A stretch of 64,000 nucleotides of DNA from Verrucomicrobiota bacterium (lineage in GTDB: Bacteria; Verrucomicrobiota; Verrucomicrobiia; Limisphaerales; J093). Shown piece by piece: positions 9,225 through 27,054 of this stretch; position 1 is the stretch's first letter; the number at the start of each line of letters is the position of its first letter. The notes beneath the pieces are model-generated. The model did not search any database, was not told the DNA's origin, and was given only the letters and a program-made list of their open reading frames with translations. Position numbers and translations under genes: made by a program. The stretch lies in the NCBI GenBank assembly GCA_016871715.1, contig VHCO01000013.1, positions 1 to 64,000 on the forward strand, written 5' to 3'.

Positions 9225-9509
9225 AGGTGGCCGGCACCCTAGACCCTGGCGAATCGAGCGGCAACGCCTAAGTGTCTCCTACGTGTTCCCGTGCGGCGAG
9301 TCTTTGAAAAGGGAGGTCGTGCCAACCTCCGCCTTTGGGTGTTCACCCAACACGCCCAGGGCCTCTGGGTGGGTTGGTGTCCAGTCGTGAGGCTGTCGGC
9401 TGACGATCGCAGCCCAAGACCGGTCGGCTCAGTCAGGGCAGATTTAGGCTCGTCGGGGACTTGGGGTAAGGCTTAGAGTGGTGGCGCAAGCGAAAGAAAG
9501 GACCCCTCT

Positions 9510-9642
9510 ATGTATTGCCGGAATTGCGGAGTGCAACTGGACCACGGGTGTGATCGGACTCATTGAAGGCATCCTCTACCTCACCAAGTCGGACGAGGAG
9601 TTTGTGCGGTTGTACGTCGAGAACCAACGCCAGTGGTTCTGA
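9510..9642 (+). pseudogene. Collapsed zinc-ribbon + TM2-domain protein remnant
   Basis: ATG 9510 encodes MYCRNCGVQLDHG (zinc-ribbon start); +1 frame continues TTGVIGLIEGILYLTKSDEEFVRLYVENQRQWF*, typical TM2 C-terminus; middle is missing. Confidence 0.55.
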
Positions 9643-9790
9643 CCCGATGGACCCTATGGGGTCGGTTGAACCGGGTGGGGCGGTAGCCGGTCCGTCCGAA
9701 CCGGTTCCTCGCGGCGGATGGGACCGGCCCGGGGGGGGGGCGGGGTGAGCGAGAGCAGCCTCGCGCACACGCGCGAGGAGTGACCCGGCT

Positions 9791-11017
9791 TCAACTAGCC
9801 CCTTCGAGGCGATGGCAAAACATGCCGTCGCGCAGCTTCGGCTCGAACCAAGTGCTCTTGGGCGGCATGATCTCGCCCGCATCCGCGATGGACATCAGGT
9901 CCTCGACGCTCGTCGGAAAGAGCGAGAAGGCACACGCATAGTCCCCCCGGTCGATGAGCCGCTCGAGCTCGCCCGTCCCGCGAATGCCGCCCACGAAACC
10001 CAAGCGCGGACTGGTCCGCGGATCGGCGATGCCGAAGATGGGCGCGATGATTTCGTGTTGGAGTCGCGATACATCCAGGTTTTGGACGGGGCGGGCGGCG
10101 GTCGTTGGCGCGGGTTGGGACTCGAGGCCGTACCAGCGACCGGCCAGGTACAGGCCCAGCGTGGACTGGCGCAGGGGCTGGGGTGGGGCATCGGGCACGA
10201 CGCGCCACACTCCCGCCAAGCGCACCAGCAACTCGTTGGGGGTGAGCCCATTGAGATCCGCCAAGACGCGGTGATAGGGCAGGATTTGGAGTTGTGTGTG
10301 CGCGAAGATGACTGCCAGGAAATGGGCGCTACCACCGGCACCCCGCCGCTGTCGAGACACGCGCGCGGCCGCCGCGGTCCGATGATGTCCGTCGGCGATG
10401 TACAAGGTCGGCAGCCGCTCGAACGCGGCCCGGACGGCCTCGTTCAAGGCGGCGTCCCGCAGTGTCCAGGACGAGTGCCGCACGCCGTCGGCAGCCACAA
10501 AATCGATCTCGGGCGGGCGGGCTGTAGCTTGGGCGACTAGATCTTCGAGCGCGGGCTCGGCGCGGTAGAGGAGGAAGGCGGGCCCCGTCTGCGCATCGAG
10601 AGCCTCGAGGTGCCGCACGCGGTCGTCTTCTTTGTCGACGCGGGTCAGTTCGTGTTTCTTGATTGCACCGGCCAAGTACGCTTCGCAGCTCGCCACGGCC
10701 ACGATGCCGGTCTGAGCGTGGTGGCCCATGACTTGTCGGTAAAGGTGGTAGGCGGGGGCCGGATCGGGCACGAGTGCGGTCTGCTGAATCAACCGCTGGA
10801 AATTCTCGCGCCCTCGAGCGTACACCATCGATGCGTAGGGGTCGGTGCCGGGCGGCAGGTCGATCTCGGGCTTGCTGACGTGCAGGAAACTGAGCGGGTT
10901 ATGGGCTGCCAACGCCCGGGCCTCCTCGGAGGACATGACGTCGTAGGGCAACTCACAAATCTGCGCGGCCAGTTCCGGTCGCGGGCGCAGGGCGGCGAAT
11001 GGTTGAATGTCGGCCAT
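9791..11017 (-). CDS. DUF1015 family protein
   Basis: 'MADIQPFAALRPRPELAAQICELPYDVMSSEEARALAAHNPLSFLHVSKPE' and 'LYIADGHHRTAAAARV'. Confidence 0.9.
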   Translation of the reverse strand: MADIQPFAALRPRPELAAQICELPYDVMSSEEARALAAHNPLSFLHVSKPEIDLPPGTDPYASMVYARGRENFQRLIQQTALVPDPAPAYHLYRQVMGHHAQTGIVAVASCEAYLAGAIKKHELTRVDKEDDRVRHLEALDAQTGPAFLLYRAEPALEDLVAQATARPPEIDFVAADGVRHSSWTLRDAALNEAVRAAFERLPTLYIADGHHRTAAAARVSRQRRGAGGSAHFLAVIFAHTQLQILPYHRVLADLNGLTPNELLVRLAGVWRVVPDAPPQPLRQSTLGLYLAGRWYGLESQPAPTTAARPVQNLDVSRLQHEIIAPIFGIADPRTSPRLGFVGGIRGTGELERLIDRGDYACAFSLFPTSVEDLMSIADAGEIMPPKSTWFEPKLRDGMFCHRLEGAS

Positions 11018-11185
11018 CGAAGCGCCGCCACAGTAGTCTCGGTCGGGGCGGATGGCACGCTGATTCTTGGCGTGGACCGCCGCGGTCGGTCGTCGCTGGT
11101 TGGGGCCGCGCGCTGGCGCGCAGTTGCAAGCGCCGGCAGTTGGCTTTCGAGGCCAGACTTGCGTTCGGCAGGTGGATGTCCCTAA

Positions 11186-12562
11186 TTGGTGCGCATGCAG
11201 TCTGGGTTTGAATCGGTTGAAGGATCGGTGGTGGCGCCGCTAGGCTTTCTGGCGGGAGGCGTCTTCTGCGACATCAAGCGCCTGGGGACCGGCAAAGGGT
11301 CGGCCAAAGGCCAGAAGCGCGACCTGGCTTTGATTGTCTCGGAGGCGCCGGCCGCCGCGGCGGGGATGTTCACGACCAACCAGGTTTGCGCGGCGCCGGT
11401 CAAGCTCTGCCTTGATCGGGTGAGCCGGGGTATGGCGCGGGCGATCGTGGTCAACTCGGGCAACGCCAATGCGTGTACGGGCCGGCGTGGTCTCGAGGAC
11501 GCCGAGCAGATGGCCGCCGCCGCCGCCCGCGCCCTGGGGTTGACGGCGCGGCAGGTCCTGGTGGCTAGTACGGGCCGGATTGGCGTGAACCTGCCGATGA
11601 ACCGGGTGAGGGCCGGGATTAAGGCGGCTGCGCAATGCTTGGGGAAGACCGCCACTCACGCCGCCGCCGCCGCGGAGGCGATCCTGACGAGCGACACCCG
11701 CGCCAAGCAGGTCGCGCTCGAGTTTAGGCTCGGCGGCCGGATCGTGCGCGTGGGCGGCATCTGCAAGGGGGCGGGTATGATCCAACCGGGCATGAGCCGG
11801 ACCGGCCGGCGTCCCGCGGCCGCGCCGCGCCCGAAGCGGCACGCCACCATGCTGGCGTTTTTGACAACGGACGCAGCAGTGGAAGTGCCCGCTCTCCAGC
11901 GCGCGATCGAGGAAGCGGTGGCGCAGAGCTTCAACCGCATTACGGTGGACGGCGACATGAGCACGAACGACACGGTCCTGTTGCTGGCCAATGGCCAGGC
12001 CGGGAACGCGCCGCTCACCGTCCGCGCTTGGGACCAGCCACGCTCGCCTCGTGCGCAAGCCGCCTTCGCCCGGCGCTTTCAGGCGGCGCTCAACCAGGTT
12101 TGTCTGGACTTGGCCCAGCAGATCGTGCGCGACGGGGAGGGCGTGAGCCGGTTTGTGACCGTGCGGGTAACGGGAGCCAAGAACGACCGGGACGCCGAGG
12201 CCGCCGCTCGCGCAGTGGCCAACAGCGCTTTGGTGAAGACCAGTTGGTGCGGTGGCGATCCGAACTGGGGTCGGATTATGGACGCCTTGGGCTATAGTCC
12301 GGCCAAAGTGGTGGAGGGCAAAGTGGACATTGGCTACAGCGCCGCCGGGAGCGGTTCGGCGCTCTGGAGCCTGAAAGGCGGCCAACCGACGCGGGCGACC
12401 TTTGGTCGGCTCTGTAAGATTGTGGCTGCCAAAGAGTTCGATTTGCACATCCGACTTCATCTGGGCCGCGGCTCGGCCGTTCTCTACGCTGCCGATCTCA
12501 CCGAGCAATACGTCGAGTTCAACCAAGGCGACGTGAACGATCCGGCGGCGTTGGGTGGGTAG
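11186..12562 (+). CDS. argJ: Bifunctional glutamate N-acetyltransferase/amino-acid acetyltransferase
   Basis: 'FTTNQVCAAPVK', 'VVNSGNANACTG', 'ATMLAFLTTDA', 'NRITVDGDMSTNDTV', 'CGGDPNWGRIMDALGYS'. Confidence 0.96.
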   Translation: MVRMQSGFESVEGSVVAPLGFLAGGVFCDIKRLGTGKGSAKGQKRDLALIVSEAPAAAAGMFTTNQVCAAPVKLCLDRVSRGMARAIVVNSGNANACTGRRGLEDAEQMAAAAARALGLTARQVLVASTGRIGVNLPMNRVRAGIKAAAQCLGKTATHAAAAAEAILTSDTRAKQVALEFRLGGRIVRVGGICKGAGMIQPGMSRTGRRPAAAPRPKRHATMLAFLTTDAAVEVPALQRAIEEAVAQSFNRITVDGDMSTNDTVLLLANGQAGNAPLTVRAWDQPRSPRAQAAFARRFQAALNQVCLDLAQQIVRDGEGVSRFVTVRVTGAKNDRDAEAAARAVANSALVKTSWCGGDPNWGRIMDALGYSPAKVVEGKVDIGYSAAGSGSALWSLKGGQPTRATFGRLCKIVAAKEFDLHIRLHLGRGSAVLYAADLTEQYVEFNQGDVNDPAALGG

Positions 12563-21309: not shown

Positions 21310-22160
21310 ACTCGGATCCCTTTTGTCGCGAGGATGGGCCGTAGCAGTCGCCTGAGGTTCTCGCCAAGGATGAGGCGCTTGGCCGCGGGGGGAATGTCGG
21401 CGCCGTGGACCTTCGCCAGTTGCGAGGCAAAACTGCGTCCACCGGCGTCGCTACCGTAGAGCACGCGTTCGGCGCCGAGCTCGCGCACGGCCATCTCGGT
21501 GAAGCCCGCCGTAGGATCGCCGCCAGCCAGATCGGCATACACATTCCGATGCGGTCGGATGGCGCGCAAACCAAGTTCCCAATCGCCACCGGCATGCCCG
21601 CAGATGAGGGTGGCCTGGGGATGGCGAGCCGCCAGTTCGGCCAGGTCCATGGGCGTGGATTCACCAGGCAGGTTGCCGGTGATCTTGAGCCAGGTGTGCT
21701 GGAAAACGATCGCCTTCAGCTCGGTTGCGCGGGCGACGAGCGGGTCGAGCTCGGGCGCATTGCAGCGCTGGGCGACCCAGAGTTTCACGCCGACCATGGG
21801 CCCGTCCCGCACGCACCGGTTCAGTTCGTCCAGGCTGGCTTGGGTGTGCTTCGGGTTTAGATAAACGAAGCCGAAGGCGCGATCGGGGAAATGCTGCAGC
21901 GCTCGGAGCACCTCGTCGTTCTCCCGCCGCATCTTCTCGGGGGACGGATCGTAACTCCACTCGAGGCCCATGAAGACGCACAGGCGCGCAATGCCCAAGC
22001 GGTCGGCATACTCGAGCAAACGCTCCAGGCGCGCCTCTGGGGTGGCGCCCGGCACTCCGCTCAGATGGCAGTGGAGGTCCCAGATGTCCATGCGTACCGT
22101 GTTGAAGGCGGCCGGGAAGGGAGCGGCGGAAGCCACTTCGGCATCAACCGGCCGGCTCAC
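21306..22160 (-). CDS. Amidohydrolase-family metal-dependent hydrolase
   Basis: 'IWDLHCHLSGVPG', 'LICGHAGGDWELGLRAIRPHRNVYADLAG', 'RVLYGSDAGG'. Confidence 0.88.
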   Translation of the reverse strand: MSRPVDAEVASAAPFPAAFNTVRMDIWDLHCHLSGVPGATPEARLERLLEYADRLGIARLCVFMGLEWSYDPSPEKMRRENDEVLRALQHFPDRAFGFVYLNPKHTQASLDELNRCVRDGPMVGVKLWVAQRCNAPELDPLVARATELKAIVFQHTWLKITGNLPGESTPMDLAELAARHPQATLICGHAGGDWELGLRAIRPHRNVYADLAGGDPTAGFTEMAVRELGAERVLYGSDAGGRSFASQLAKVHGADIPPAAKRLILGENLRRLLRPILATKGIRV

Positions 22161-22906
22161 TCTCGATCCGGGTCGACTCCGAGTCGGCGGAGCTTCTCGG
22201 CCAGTCGAGCGGCTCGGGTGTCGGCAGCCTCTGCCCGTTGGCGTTCCTGCTCCGCCCGTTGGCCTGCCTGGGCGGCACGCTGGCGTTCCTGTTCAGCCCG
22301 CTGGCGTTCCTGTTCAGCCCGCTTGAGCAGTTCCGTGTGCGTCTCGAAGGCCGTCCCGTCGGGGCGCTCGACTTTCAGGCCCTCGGTGCTTGGCCAAAAC
22401 CGAACCTTCAATCGTGGGCTTTGGTAACCCTCGAGGTGGGTTACCGGTTCGAGGGCTTCCCCGCGCCGCAGCCACGCCCGGAGTTCGTGCTTCTCCGGAT
22501 CGTAAACGTAGTATTCCTCGATGCCGTAGCGGGTGTAGGCGTTGAACTTGTCGAGCAGTTCGAGGGCGGTGTTATTGGGCGAGAGCACCTCGAAGACCAC
22601 TTGAGGGGCGATCCCGCCTTCCTCCCACTGTTTGTAACAGCCGCGATAACCCATCGGCCGACCAAAGGCGACCATCGCGTCCGGCGCAAATGCGATGTCC
22701 ACCCGGCCCTCGACCGGGTACCAGAGCAGATCGCCGGCGACAAAGACATTGGGATCTTCGGCAAAAAGGGCCTTGAGATTCTCGACCAGGAGCACGATCC
22801 ACTTGAACTGCTCGGTGTTCTCAGCCATGGGTTTCCCGTCGCTCTCCGGGTAGTAGACCTCCCCCGGTTTGGGCCAGGTGCGAAAGGTGGGCGCGTTGAC
22901 CGGCAT
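22157..22906 (-). CDS. Uma2-family (DUF820) putative restriction-endonuclease-like protein with C-terminal coiled coil
   Basis: 'PNVFVAGDLLWYPVEGRVDIAFAPDAMVAFGRP', 'GIAPQVVFEVLSPNNTALELLDKFNAYTRYGIEEYYVYDPE'; C-terminal RAEQERQ heptads. Confidence 0.88.
   Translation of the reverse strand: MPVNAPTFRTWPKPGEVYYPESDGKPMAENTEQFKWIVLLVENLKALFAEDPNVFVAGDLLWYPVEGRVDIAFAPDAMVAFGRPMGYRGCYKQWEEGGIAPQVVFEVLSPNNTALELLDKFNAYTRYGIEEYYVYDPEKHELRAWLRRGEALEPVTHLEGYQSPRLKVRFWPSTEGLKVERPDGTAFETHTELLKRAEQERQRAEQERQRAAQAGQRAEQERQRAEAADTRAARLAEKLRRLGVDPDRE
22229..22330 (-). repeat. 21-bp coding tandem repeat (RAEQERQ heptads) in the Uma2 gene
   Basis: Repeated 'gctggcgttcctgttcagccc' units. Confidence 0.8.
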
Positions 22907-23244: not shown

Positions 23245-24201
23245 TCATGTCGTCCCGCCGGCGTGCCCAATGCTGAACGAGTACGAAGCACCGCGTCGGC
23301 TTGCGGGATCGAGCTGTCGTTGGATGTCGTCGCGGGTCTTGCGATCCAGCCTTGACCAGGTATCGCAAGCCTCATGGTCCTCGTCGAACCCATTGCCGCA
23401 CAGAATCCCGATCAAGTTTGAGATGACGTAGCGGGTGTGGCCCTTGTCCGGACGCTGGAGCTTGTCCCACAGGAAGACGCGCGCCGAAAGGCCCACTCGG
23501 GCGAGCGGCTTCTCCAAATCCCGGAACCGCCCTCTCCAGTAATCGCACCCTCTGTCCCGCTGATCGTGGCTATCCTCGTACCACACCCGATGGAGTTGAA
23601 TGAGAGGCGGACATTCAGCGCGTCGGCAGGCCAGGAGCAACTCGACGAATCTGGCATAGCGCCTCTTGCTCGGATCGAGATGCGGATCGATGAACATCAG
23701 GTGTGTCGCGTGTCGGAGCACGAGGTCAAGGTGACGCAGGTAATCACCGGTGGTTCGGTTCAAAATGACCGACTCACGACGATCCTGCCACCACGGACTG
23801 TTGCTGAGATGGCCAATCCGCGCCACCAACGCTTCTTGAGTGAATTGATCACCAAGCGCATCGCTGACCACGATCCCGGTCAGCGGTTGTTGCCGGTCTG
23901 ACGCCAACGACTCACGGCACCAGTCGGCCTCCTGCTGCGGGGGGGTGGACAACGCTGCCGGTGCCAAGACCAGACGCCCCTGCTTCTGGAGCTTGTGGAC
24001 CAATTCGAGGCCGCGTCGGTGCCACCGCCCCGAATTGTCCAGGAGATGGGCGAGCCAGTCTCCGTCTCGTAGATCCCGGACCAGACCCTGGCTCAGCAGC
24101 GCTTCCTTCACATGCGTCAAGCGGATGTCGCAAACCTCCTCCGACGAGTAGCTCGCAGCCGCAAAGATCTCGGGAGTCAGGCAGTATTCCCCAAGGAGCA
24201 T
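23245..24201 (-). CDS. Uncharacterised protein with degenerate PLD-like motif, partner of the adjacent AAA ATPase
   Basis: 'ATHLMFIDPHLDPSKRRYARFVELLLAC' and 'KGHTRYVISNLIGILCGNGFDED' resemble the FIDPYFDP...HDRYxxTxxGGIxxGxGxD layout of PLD-like (MIT_C-type) proteins; ATG 24201 lies 4 nt after the ATPase stop. Confidence 0.7.
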   Translation of the reverse strand: MLLGEYCLTPEIFAAASYSSEEVCDIRLTHVKEALLSQGLVRDLRDGDWLAHLLDNSGRWHRRGLELVHKLQKQGRLVLAPAALSTPPQQEADWCRESLASDRQQPLTGIVVSDALGDQFTQEALVARIGHLSNSPWWQDRRESVILNRTTGDYLRHLDLVLRHATHLMFIDPHLDPSKRRYARFVELLLACRRAECPPLIQLHRVWYEDSHDQRDRGCDYWRGRFRDLEKPLARVGLSARVFLWDKLQRPDKGHTRYVISNLIGILCGNGFDEDHEACDTWSRLDRKTRDDIQRQLDPASRRGASYSFSIGHAGGTT

Positions 24202-24205
24202 AGCC

Positions 24206-25903
24206 CTATGGAAGCATTTCCCGAAGCCCCTCCTCGAAGAACCCGCCAGGCCAGGCCTTGACGAGATCACCCCGCTCGTTGAGTGGGAACTCGCGGACAA
24301 GGCCGTGATCGCCATCTCTCTCCACGTAGAGGACCGCCACGTCGGTCGGCTTTACAGGAGCCAAGTTCTTCTCCTTTGGCAGCTTCCCCAAGTGCGTCTC
24401 GCGGATCCGTCGCATGATCCGCAGGATCAAATGCTCGCTGTGGGTCTCGATGAGGAACGTGTTCCTCCGCTCGCCTAGGGCGGACTCGATGAACACGTCC
24501 CCCAGTTCGGCCTGCATGCCGGGGTGAAGGTGGATCTCCGGCTGTTCGATCGCGACGAGCTTCTGCTGGTTGCCGTAGGCCTGAACGAGCACGGGCAAGA
24601 CCTGGCTGATGCCGATGCCGACGTCGCGGTGCGAGACCATGGCTCCGTTACGTTGGTCCAGAAGAGCCAGGGACCGCCGCCACTCGAGGCTTTTATCGCT
24701 GCACAAATTGCAGATGAAGTCCTTTGCGGGCCCGCCGCCTGCGGGCTTGTCGGTATCGAGCATGTCCTTGTTGGGGAAATCCCTGCGAATCGCGCGGAGT
24801 TCGCGAGCGATCGCCGATTTCGCACCTTCCAGGTCGAGCCAGGACCTGGTCGTCAGAGCATAGGGGACCTGCAGGCTGCCCTTGGGACCAAGCCATTTGT
24901 TCACTTCGCCCCGAACGGCCTCGTCCCGACGCACGACCTCCCACGCGAAGGCGCCTCCGGCGACCCAGTTGGCGTCGCTCGGATCGCGCGCTTCGAAGTA
25001 CCTGGGAGGCAAGGAGCGCAATGGGCCAAGGTACTGCAGGCTGCGCAGATCCCGAGTGAGCAGCCCGTTAACCGCCTCCAGGAGACGTTCCAACGAGCGC
25101 AGGAGTCGGCAGGACGCACCGACCCTGGTTTCGGGCAGGCTCGGCCGAGCCCACTGAGCCTTTAAGTCAGCGTCGCCTCCCAAGTATTCGATTCGCCGCG
25201 GGATCAAGTCGCCAGCGTCCGCGACCAAACCAATGTCGCCTTGGAGACTCTCCCAGGCGAGATCGGATCGCCTTGGCAGCGACTCCCGCAGCATCCAATC
25301 CTCGTCCGGCCGAGATTCCTGCGACTCGGCGACCGCCTGGAAGACCGGATGGTCCAGGGACAGTCGTTCGATCCGATAGCCTCTCCGGGCCCATTGGTCC
25401 AGTGCGCCCAGGTTGTTAGGACCCAGGGCTTGAACCAGTGGCTCGGCCTGCCGATGGACGAAACTGACCAACTCGCTATCTCCTGCTCTTACACGACCGC
25501 GAAGGACCCTGGGCGCGCCCTCGCGGAGCCGGTTGCCGCAGTAGTCAGACTCAGCCCCTACCTCGATCTCTAACGAAACCTCTCTTCCCAGGCGCAACGC
25601 TTCGGGTAGGTTCGTGCTATCCGCTGGTATCGCCAGATCGAAGTGCAGGGTGACGGGTGTCTCCAACCGCTGGCGATGGACATACGCGCCAAAACCGCCT
25701 AGATCTACGGAGTCGCCGCCGAGGGCGGTGCGGCGGGCGTTCCAGTCGCCTGTTTCCAACGCGTGACGGGTCAACAGCAACGCGTGGATCAGGCTCGACT
25801 TGCCCGAGCTGTTGGCGCCGAAGATCAGCGTGATCGGGCGGATGGGGACCTTTTGGATTCCGCCGAAGGCTTTGAAATTCCCGATCGAAAGCGACGTCAG
25901 CAT
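24206..25903 (-). CDS. AAA family ATPase (AAA_15/OLD-like) with DUF3696-like C-terminus
   Basis: 'MLTSLSIGNFKAFGGIQKVPIRPITLIFGANSSGKSSLIHALL' Walker A; 'KLVAIEQPEIHLHPGMQAELGDVFIES' Walker B; 'NTFLIETHSEHLILRIMRRI'; C-terminal 'FPLNERGDLVKAWPGGFFEEGLREML'. Confidence 0.9.
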   Translation of the reverse strand: MLTSLSIGNFKAFGGIQKVPIRPITLIFGANSSGKSSLIHALLLTRHALETGDWNARRTALGGDSVDLGGFGAYVHRQRLETPVTLHFDLAIPADSTNLPEALRLGREVSLEIEVGAESDYCGNRLREGAPRVLRGRVRAGDSELVSFVHRQAEPLVQALGPNNLGALDQWARRGYRIERLSLDHPVFQAVAESQESRPDEDWMLRESLPRRSDLAWESLQGDIGLVADAGDLIPRRIEYLGGDADLKAQWARPSLPETRVGASCRLLRSLERLLEAVNGLLTRDLRSLQYLGPLRSLPPRYFEARDPSDANWVAGGAFAWEVVRRDEAVRGEVNKWLGPKGSLQVPYALTTRSWLDLEGAKSAIARELRAIRRDFPNKDMLDTDKPAGGGPAKDFICNLCSDKSLEWRRSLALLDQRNGAMVSHRDVGIGISQVLPVLVQAYGNQQKLVAIEQPEIHLHPGMQAELGDVFIESALGERRNTFLIETHSEHLILRIMRRIRETHLGKLPKEKNLAPVKPTDVAVLYVERDGDHGLVREFPLNERGDLVKAWPGGFFEEGLREMLP

Positions 25904-26145
25904 GGCGGCCCTTTCTTCTTTTGTTGCGGTTGTGATCGAGTGGGTCTGGCGCCCGCTGCTCGACGATTCGATGAAACGGATGGACGGTCTGCACCCGCCA
26001 CCAGCCAATCGGGCATGTCGCTGAATTCGCCAGCCACAGGGACCCGGCCCTTCCAACAACGGGGTCAATATGGGGGTTGGGACTGCCTCGGTCCATGCCG
26101 AAAAACCCAAGTGACTTGACTCTCCGGTCATGCGATAAGCCGCCG

Positions 26146-27054
26146 ATGAGCAGCTCGTTGCTTTCGCGGAGGGGTTTGTCGTTGGAGCGGCTGGCCAGTT
26201 TCGTCGCTGTCGGGGATGCCGGTGGTCTCAGTGCTGCGGCGGAGGGCGACGCTGTTCGCCAAAGCCAGTTGAGCCGACAACTCAAGGAGCTCGAAGAGTT
26301 CTTTGGCGTCACGTTGATCGAACGGCGGCGGGGCGTCTTCCGGCTCACCGCGGCAGGTCGCGGATTGATCGAGGTTGCCCGGCCGGCGCTGGTTCGGTTG
26401 GAGGACTTCGACCGACGCTGCACTGCGCAGTTGACCGAGGTTCACTTGGGCGCCGGTGAAAGCGTGCTGGTCTGGCTAGTGTCGCCGCGCCTCAGGACTC
26501 TCCTCGACAAAGATCCCAACCTCGGCTTCACGTTTCACAATCTCCGGTCCGAGGAGATTCTGACGCGTCTCCGCCAGGGGCGGCTCGACTTCGGCATCGT
26601 GCGCTGTTCCACGGTGGGGGCGGGGTTGACGAGCGCGCCCCTGGGCAAAGTGGAGTACGCGCTCTTTATGTCGGCTGGCGCGACCCGGAAGCGCAGGGGG
26701 ACAACCGCTGCCCAGAAGCTCGGTCAGGTTCCGCTGGTGCTGCTGGAGGGGGGCGGTTCAGTCGGCGACGCGCTGACCGATTGGGCGGCATCCAACCGCA
26801 TCAGCCTGCGAGTCCGGTTGCGTTGCACGTCGCTGGTCCAAGCAGCCGCCGCGGTTCAGGACCTCGGCCTGGCAGCGGTGCTGCCCGTCTGGGCTGAGGT
26901 GGCGTTCGCCCCAGGGACAACGGAGCACATGAGCCTGCCTGCGCTACGGTCCGTCGACGCTCCGCTTCACCTGATTTGGAGCAAGCGGCAACTGGGAGTG
27001 CGGCCTGTTCTCGTGGGCTTGGCCAAGATGCTGGCGAACACCCTGAAGCTCTGA
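26146..27054 (+). CDS. LysR family transcriptional regulator
   Basis: N-terminal wHTH 'LERLASFVAVGDAGGLSAAAEGDAVRQSQLSRQLKELEEFFGVTLIERRRGVFRLTAAGRGL'; substrate-binding-like C-terminus. Confidence 0.9.
   Translation: MSSSLLSRRGLSLERLASFVAVGDAGGLSAAAEGDAVRQSQLSRQLKELEEFFGVTLIERRRGVFRLTAAGRGLIEVARPALVRLEDFDRRCTAQLTEVHLGAGESVLVWLVSPRLRTLLDKDPNLGFTFHNLRSEEILTRLRQGRLDFGIVRCSTVGAGLTSAPLGKVEYALFMSAGATRKRRGTTAAQKLGQVPLVLLEGGGSVGDALTDWAASNRISLRVRLRCTSLVQAAAAVQDLGLAAVLPVWAEVAFAPGTTEHMSLPALRSVDAPLHLIWSKRQLGVRPVLVGLAKMLANTLKL

Follow-up and report, generated by a model that had tools for sequence, protein, structure and literature searches.

A candidate defence module that pairs an OLD-family ATPase with a predicted PIN-like/PLD-like partner and is often found at the end of Type I restriction-modification operons

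Pairs of an ATPase and a nuclease recur widely in bacterial immunity, and it is the effector that sets their mode of action. A sensor or clamp role of the ATPase, working with an effector, is established for PARIS and other OLD-ATPase dyads, and the R-linked ORFs RloA and RloB of Type I restriction-modification (R-M) operons represent an ATPase-containing pair inside hsd operons. PARIS (AriA-AriB), which combines an AAA_15-type ATPase with a nuclease effector, senses anti-restriction proteins such as Ocr (PMC12839542). Here we compare such systems with a gene pair from a Verrucomicrobiota bacterium (assembly GCA_016871715.1), located in what we call the window, the whole stretch of 64,000 nucleotides that was analysed (contig VHCO01000013.1, positions 1 to 64,000).

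The upstream gene of the pair encodes an ATPase with the Walker A sequence GANSSGKSS (residues 29–37), which scores above the curated Pfam cut-offs for AAA_15 (7.4e-18) and AAA_21 (7.1e-16) and ends in a DUF3696 tail (residues 518–562; 22.8 bits against a cut-off of 22, 1.1e-4), in accordance with the OLD/AAA_15-type ATPase and DUF3696 C-terminus named in a preliminary description of this DNA. That description also gave both open reading frames with the correct coordinates and strand (Table 1), and it placed the partner ATG 4 nt past the ATPase stop, where the junction indeed reads CTT CCA TAG, GGCT, ATG CTC CTT; the partner motifs that it quoted also occur in the translation. The best PADLOC matches of the ATPase are PDC-M55A (1.8e-42), NsnB (6.1e-40) and HEC-03B (1.2e-34), compared with which the AriA model matches at 9e-20. 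No TOPRIM family was found on the ATPase in Pfam and NCBIfam scans. The pair differs from Gabija in having no TOPRIM domain on either protein, and from PARIS in that AriB is a TOPRIM nuclease, whereas the partner combines PIN-like and PLD-like folds and is, as had been stated, no TOPRIM effector. Neither a sigma-70 promoter nor a convincing terminator was found in the window stretch. Apart from a LysR gene, the immediate neighbours are ordinary genes (amidohydrolases, CN_hydrolase, Uma2) that form no defence island, a point against a defence role; the downstream Uma2 gene (22157-22906), a candidate third component, was discarded because related loci do not share it. In three other loci (L041, L042 and L043; e.g., L042:6350-8182), the ATPase carries, before its P-loop, an unusual additional N-terminal domain, which in L042 resembles IF2_N (6.7e-5, just under the cut-off).

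Table 1. Features of the ATPase-partner locus, in window coordinates.
Feature	Position	Strand	Basis
OLD/AAA_15-type ABC ATPase, 565 aa, DUF3696 tail, proposed sensor/transducer	24206..25903	-	Pfam, PADLOC
Partner, 318 aa, PIN-like and PLD/MIT_C-like domains, proposed effector nuclease	23245..24201	-	Translation, AlphaFold2, Foldseek
N-terminal PIN-like domain of partner, residues 1-142	23776..24201	-	AlphaFold2 of domain, Foldseek
C-terminal PLD/MIT_C-like domain of partner, about residues 143-300	23302..23775	-	Foldseek, MIT_C match of relative
HxR-x4-N motif HTRYVISN, residues 255-262, variant of HxK-x4-D	23416..23439	-	Alignment of 30 sequences
LysR-type regulator, divergent from ATPase gene	26146..27054	+	Pfam HTH_1 2e-14, LysR_substrate 2e-23
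Divergent intergenic region, 242 bp, putative shared control region	25904..26145	.	Matches L009 arrangement

With Menshen (NsnA-NsnB-NsnC), the pair shares an NsnB-like ATPase with the same C-terminal region and an effector gene directly downstream, and it might be read as a member or variant of Menshen in which the partner is a divergent NsnC. NsnB is second to PDC-M55A among the ATPase matches, NsnC lies directly after NsnB and is similar in length to the partner (305 positions), and a paper on Menshen domain polymorphism is cited for BrxL-HKD in PMC12839542, which we count on the same side. However, the NsnC model matches neither the genome of the window nor any of the partner loci, comparing the partner profile with three NsnC sequences yields a probability of 0.1%, and no match to DUF262 (NsnA-type) was obtained in the neighbourhoods with one query and no profile. 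In addition, one genome (G266) holds a true NsnB-NsnC pair and an ATPase-partner cassette at separate places. Identity of the partner with NsnC is ruled out by the model scans and the profile probability, and membership in Menshen as a whole seems to us very unlikely; the pair further differs from Menshen in being usually tied to Type I R-M genes and, in Verrucomicrobia, to a LysR gene. The likeness to the PADLOC candidates PDC-M55 and HEC-03 is one between ATPases, the window partner having no PADLOC match. PADLOC, NCBIfam and profile comparison gave no exact match to a named defence system, a check that the preliminary description had called for. Because NsnC and TOPRIM are both absent from the pair and the one NsnA-type query gave no match nearby, we place the pair as new within the ATPase-plus-nuclease theme, probably as an unnamed module; the combination with a PIN-like/PLD partner was not found in the catalogues and open papers searched, and an earlier naming is possible.

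The partner of the window by itself has no match in Pfam, PADLOC or NCBIfam. A PADLOC scan of 20 partner sequences gave no significant match, except BrxL for one of them, and a single partner among 16, not the window copy, matches Pfam MIT_C (8.3e-4). An AlphaFold2 model (pLDDT 90.3, pTM 0.88), computed with 20 window and locus sequences as input, is that of a two-domain protein, a PIN-like domain followed by a PLD/MIT_C-like domain. In a Foldseek search of the PDB, the model matches MITD1 (2ymb/4a5z; probability 1.00, TM 0.60 over the length of the MITD1 domain), many phospholipases D, including the Streptomyces enzyme (probability 0.97–1.00), and also SauUSI and TrmBL2. The C-terminal domain of MITD1 (Pfam MIT_C), the closest solved fold by coverage, is eukaryotic and is not known to have an HxR motif, and it differs from the partner family also in that just the one sequence above reaches the MIT_C profile. 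The PLD/MIT_C fold suggested beforehand thus agrees with the model, but not as a description of the whole protein, the N-terminal half being a separate domain.

Modelled alone (pLDDT 91.4), this N-terminal domain has its best Foldseek match in 3ix7, which we take to be a PIN domain (probability 0.99, E 0.0095; none below E = 0.001), and many PIN-type folds follow within the top 35 (ZC3H12B, AF0591, PRORP, FitB, EST1A and SSO1118; all E > 0.009). We read the modelled domain as PIN-like. Its conserved columns are P10, G39, W49 and W94, with no acid among them, and the acidic quartet of PIN domains is not conserved in the partner N-terminus. Because the conserved columns carry no acid, the PIN-like domain should be catalytically dead. 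Profile comparison found no link between the partner N-terminus and the PIN proteins of the sister ATPase cassettes described below.

The PLD-like domain carries its motif in altered form. We aligned 30 sequences, including the BrxL C-termini of L039 and L040 and two divergent partners, in which H255, R257 and G271 never vary, position 172 always holds D or E, and position 204 is H in 25. The eighth position of the motif is D or E in 25 sequences and N in three, among them the window; the copies from Vibrio and Azotobacter carry A or K there. The canonical HxK-x4-D is absent from the partner family, where K occurs in none of the 30 sequences and the pattern is HxR-x4-[D/E/N] instead. Because HxR is invariant throughout the alignment, BrxL C-termini included, the motif is, by sequence, a K-to-R variant of HKD and not the eroded HKD motif proposed earlier. 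This PLD-type domain, with the motif HARHIVTD, also forms the C-terminus of the BrxL-like proteins L039 and L040, which come from the phylum of the window. The partner thereby resembles BrxL with a C-terminal HKD domain (Type 1 BREX) in its H-x-R for H-x-K; in BREX, however, the PLD domain is fused to an AAA+ protein, whereas in the partner it comes after a PIN-like domain, encoded by a gene of its own that accompanies an OLD-type ATPase gene. BrxL-HKD variants with an HRD motif were judged likely active in a 2026 BREX survey (PMC12839542).

The same motif bears on whether the PLD-like domain cuts at all. It could be non-catalytic and bind membranes or nucleic acid, as MITD1 or TrmBL2 do, the pair then having no part in defence. 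Both proteins are among the top folds, the PLD-like domain of MITD1 is non-catalytic, making a binding role possible, and the partner family lacks the canonical K and varies at the position of the acid. Some OLD-family ATPases, moreover, act outside defence, such as Cran1 (PMC12796447). We nevertheless regard this reading as quite unlikely. All 30 sequences, although very divergent, keep H and R, and D172 and H204 are almost as constant, a degree of conservation that would be unusual in a domain with a purely structural role; the linkage of the pair to R-M operons also speaks against it.

The partner gene is immediately preceded by the ATPase gene in 25 of the 25 full-length loci with upstream sequence, a count to which Syntrophus and four plasmid-bearing species contribute; the exceptions to the pairing are fragments, contig edges and odd architectures (L028/L034, L031 and L032). 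Because all 25 loci agree, the pairing is not due to chance, and the conserved pairing anticipated in the preliminary description is borne out by this neighbourhood survey. The pair is found in Verrucomicrobia, in Syntrophus, and on plasmids of Methylocella, Deinococcus, Vibrio and Azotobacter. Its distribution is patchy: among 320 genomes of the order, the partner profile detects relatives in 20, and among 388 genomes sampled from the phylum, in seven. The window partner as query gave no relatives in genome contigs, phages or plasmids, and more conserved members as queries gave relatives in plasmids and other phyla. Phage records and viral contigs yielded no relative at the sensitivity used, so that the link to phage biology is indirect. 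A few copies are decaying: that of G010 (L048) has a split ATPase, in two parts, and the remains of a LysR gene, that of Azotobacter (L107) has a broken hsdM with the pair intact, and L023 (G064) and L030 (G207) have an in-frame stop in the partner match.

The pair is the end of a Type I R-M operon, in the order hsdR-hsdM-hsdS-ATPase-partner, in 14 of 23 informative loci. This order is seen in 11 Verrucomicrobia loci, some of them cut by contig or region edges, with the R-M gene identities of L042 confirmed by Pfam and PADLOC; by annotation, plasmids of Methylocella tundrae and Vibrio coralliilyticus have it too, as does, with a broken hsdM, a plasmid of Azotobacter chroococcum. The window has no hsdRMS genes and thus no hsdS 5' of the pair, and the Deinococcus and Syntrophus copies have no adjoining R-M genes. 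Because N6-methylase genes are too rare in the same 20 genomes (about 0.013–0.018 expected per 20 kb), the R-M linkage, found in 10 of 20, is not due to chance (P about 1e-13, a rough value that assumes independent loci). Control DUF3696 ATPases accompanied by a PIN and an RNA ligase gene, or by an NsnC-like gene, are R-M linked in none of seven cases, several of them on short contigs. The defence context suggested from the window alone is supported by the related loci, which besides Type I R-M include Upx (PADLOC 1.5e-134) with a Schlafen/AlbA-type gene in L051, an HmaA/BrxH-like helicase with a dynamin-like gene in L046, and SIR2 and DUF87 genes in L104, each beside the pair. We note that in three loci Upx is located between hsdS and the ATPase gene (L051:2054-5914, 1286 aa; L052:3648-7466; L053:12221-16081), one R-M operon there holding two defence modules. 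In two solo cassettes, an extra gene lies directly 3' of the partner (L008:8473-9156 and L012:408-1184); the L008 copy has no Pfam or PADLOC match, and its sequence recalls helix-hairpin-helix proteins.

In a tree of the partners, the window copy falls together with two solo and two R-M-linked copies (support 98/99), and the branches that are well supported require R-M linkage to have changed at least four times. The simplest reading is that the R-M genes were lost repeatedly and LysR was kept, and gain is also possible; the window is best explained as a reduced form of the module, without hsdRMS and with LysR kept. The place 3' of hsdS within the same operon, the shared LysR gene and the number of changes on the tree would also suit a control device of Type I R-M, tuning or loading the restriction complex, for example, and not a separate effector, with solo copies using an R-M system elsewhere or being relics. 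Most solo copies, however, keep an intact ATPase and partner with invariant motifs, the Azotobacter pair is intact despite its broken hsdM, and the Deinococcus and Syntrophus pairs stand apart from R-M genes, so that we consider such a device unlikely.

The LysR gene appears to belong to the ATPase-partner unit. Its subfamily adjoins the ATPase gene in four other solo loci (L008, L009, L011 and L012) and hsdR in five R-M operons (L041, L042, L044, L046 and L047), and in 11 of 19 other genomes the contig that bears the cassette also carries the best homologue of the window LysR. Other lineages have a WYL protein (Methylocella) or sigma-54 activators (Vibrio and Azotobacter) in the same place. 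Of the two-gene cassette first described, the pair therefore stands, but not the limit to two genes, as LysR is added here and hsdRMS in most relatives. The divergent arrangement recurs in L009 (12518-12760), with 243 bp between the genes as against 242 bp in the window. A conserved block, CAAGTGACTTGAC..ATAAGCCG, lies just upstream of LysR in the window (26108-26145) and at the LysR-proximal end of the L009 region, and the R-M loci have AGTATTGC..TTCTAGGCT..ATAACT in its place. These blocks are possible operators or promoters; no LysR-type palindrome common to the control regions was found. In another locus (L115:6238-11432, G254:C68), away from the cassette, a LysR of the window subfamily is divergent to an N6-methylase-like protein of 1419 residues, which suggests that this LysR group may serve several R-M types.

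The genome of the window holds a second DUF3696-type ATPase gene (L109, G000:C57:11000-30000, at 9394-12051), followed by a PIN-like gene that keeps the conserved acids and by one for an RNA_ligase protein (PF09414, 2.8e-31). The same three genes follow one another in five genomes of the order, with L108, L110, L111 (where the PIN gene is split) and L114 among the loci. This cassette may be a cut-and-repair RNA module.

For the pair itself, the best reading is that it assists or guards Type I restriction, with a sensor ATPase controlling a PLD-type nuclease. We think it reasonably probable that the pair acts in defence, combining an OLD-family ABC ATPase as sensor or transducer with a dedicated PIN-like/PLD HxR effector and usually forming the end of a Type I R-M operon. 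Before infection, the ATPase would keep the effector inactive, with the PIN-like domain serving as its dock. Infection, perhaps through interference with Type I restriction or through an unusual nucleic-acid state, would change the ATPase and free the PLD domain to cut phosphodiester bonds, either in the nucleic acid of the invader or, as an abortive response, in that of the host. The location of the pair inside R-M operons suggests a second line that would act once restriction is evaded. What the analysis shows is the gene pair, the modelled folds, the invariant motif, the conserved pairing and the linkage to R-M and LysR genes; the roles given to the two proteins follow the analogy with PARIS and other OLD-ATPase dyads, and complex formation, nuclease activity, trigger and anti-phage outcome are inferred. 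A more elaborate version is conceivable, on balance doubtful: a widely transferred guard of Type I restriction, with a LysR-switched ATPase, a dead PIN domain as the hold, and an HxR nuclease freed when restriction is blocked or fails, which can outlast the R-M genes.

In sum, the combination of an OLD-type ATPase with an acid-less PIN-like/HxR-PLD partner, which in several phyla closes Type I R-M operons, is an addition to the catalogues and open papers searched. The HxR variant, which also occurs in BrxL, becomes a testable case of whether such a domain is an active nuclease. A protein annotated as hypothetical is now tied to restriction, with a testable two-layer defence predicted.
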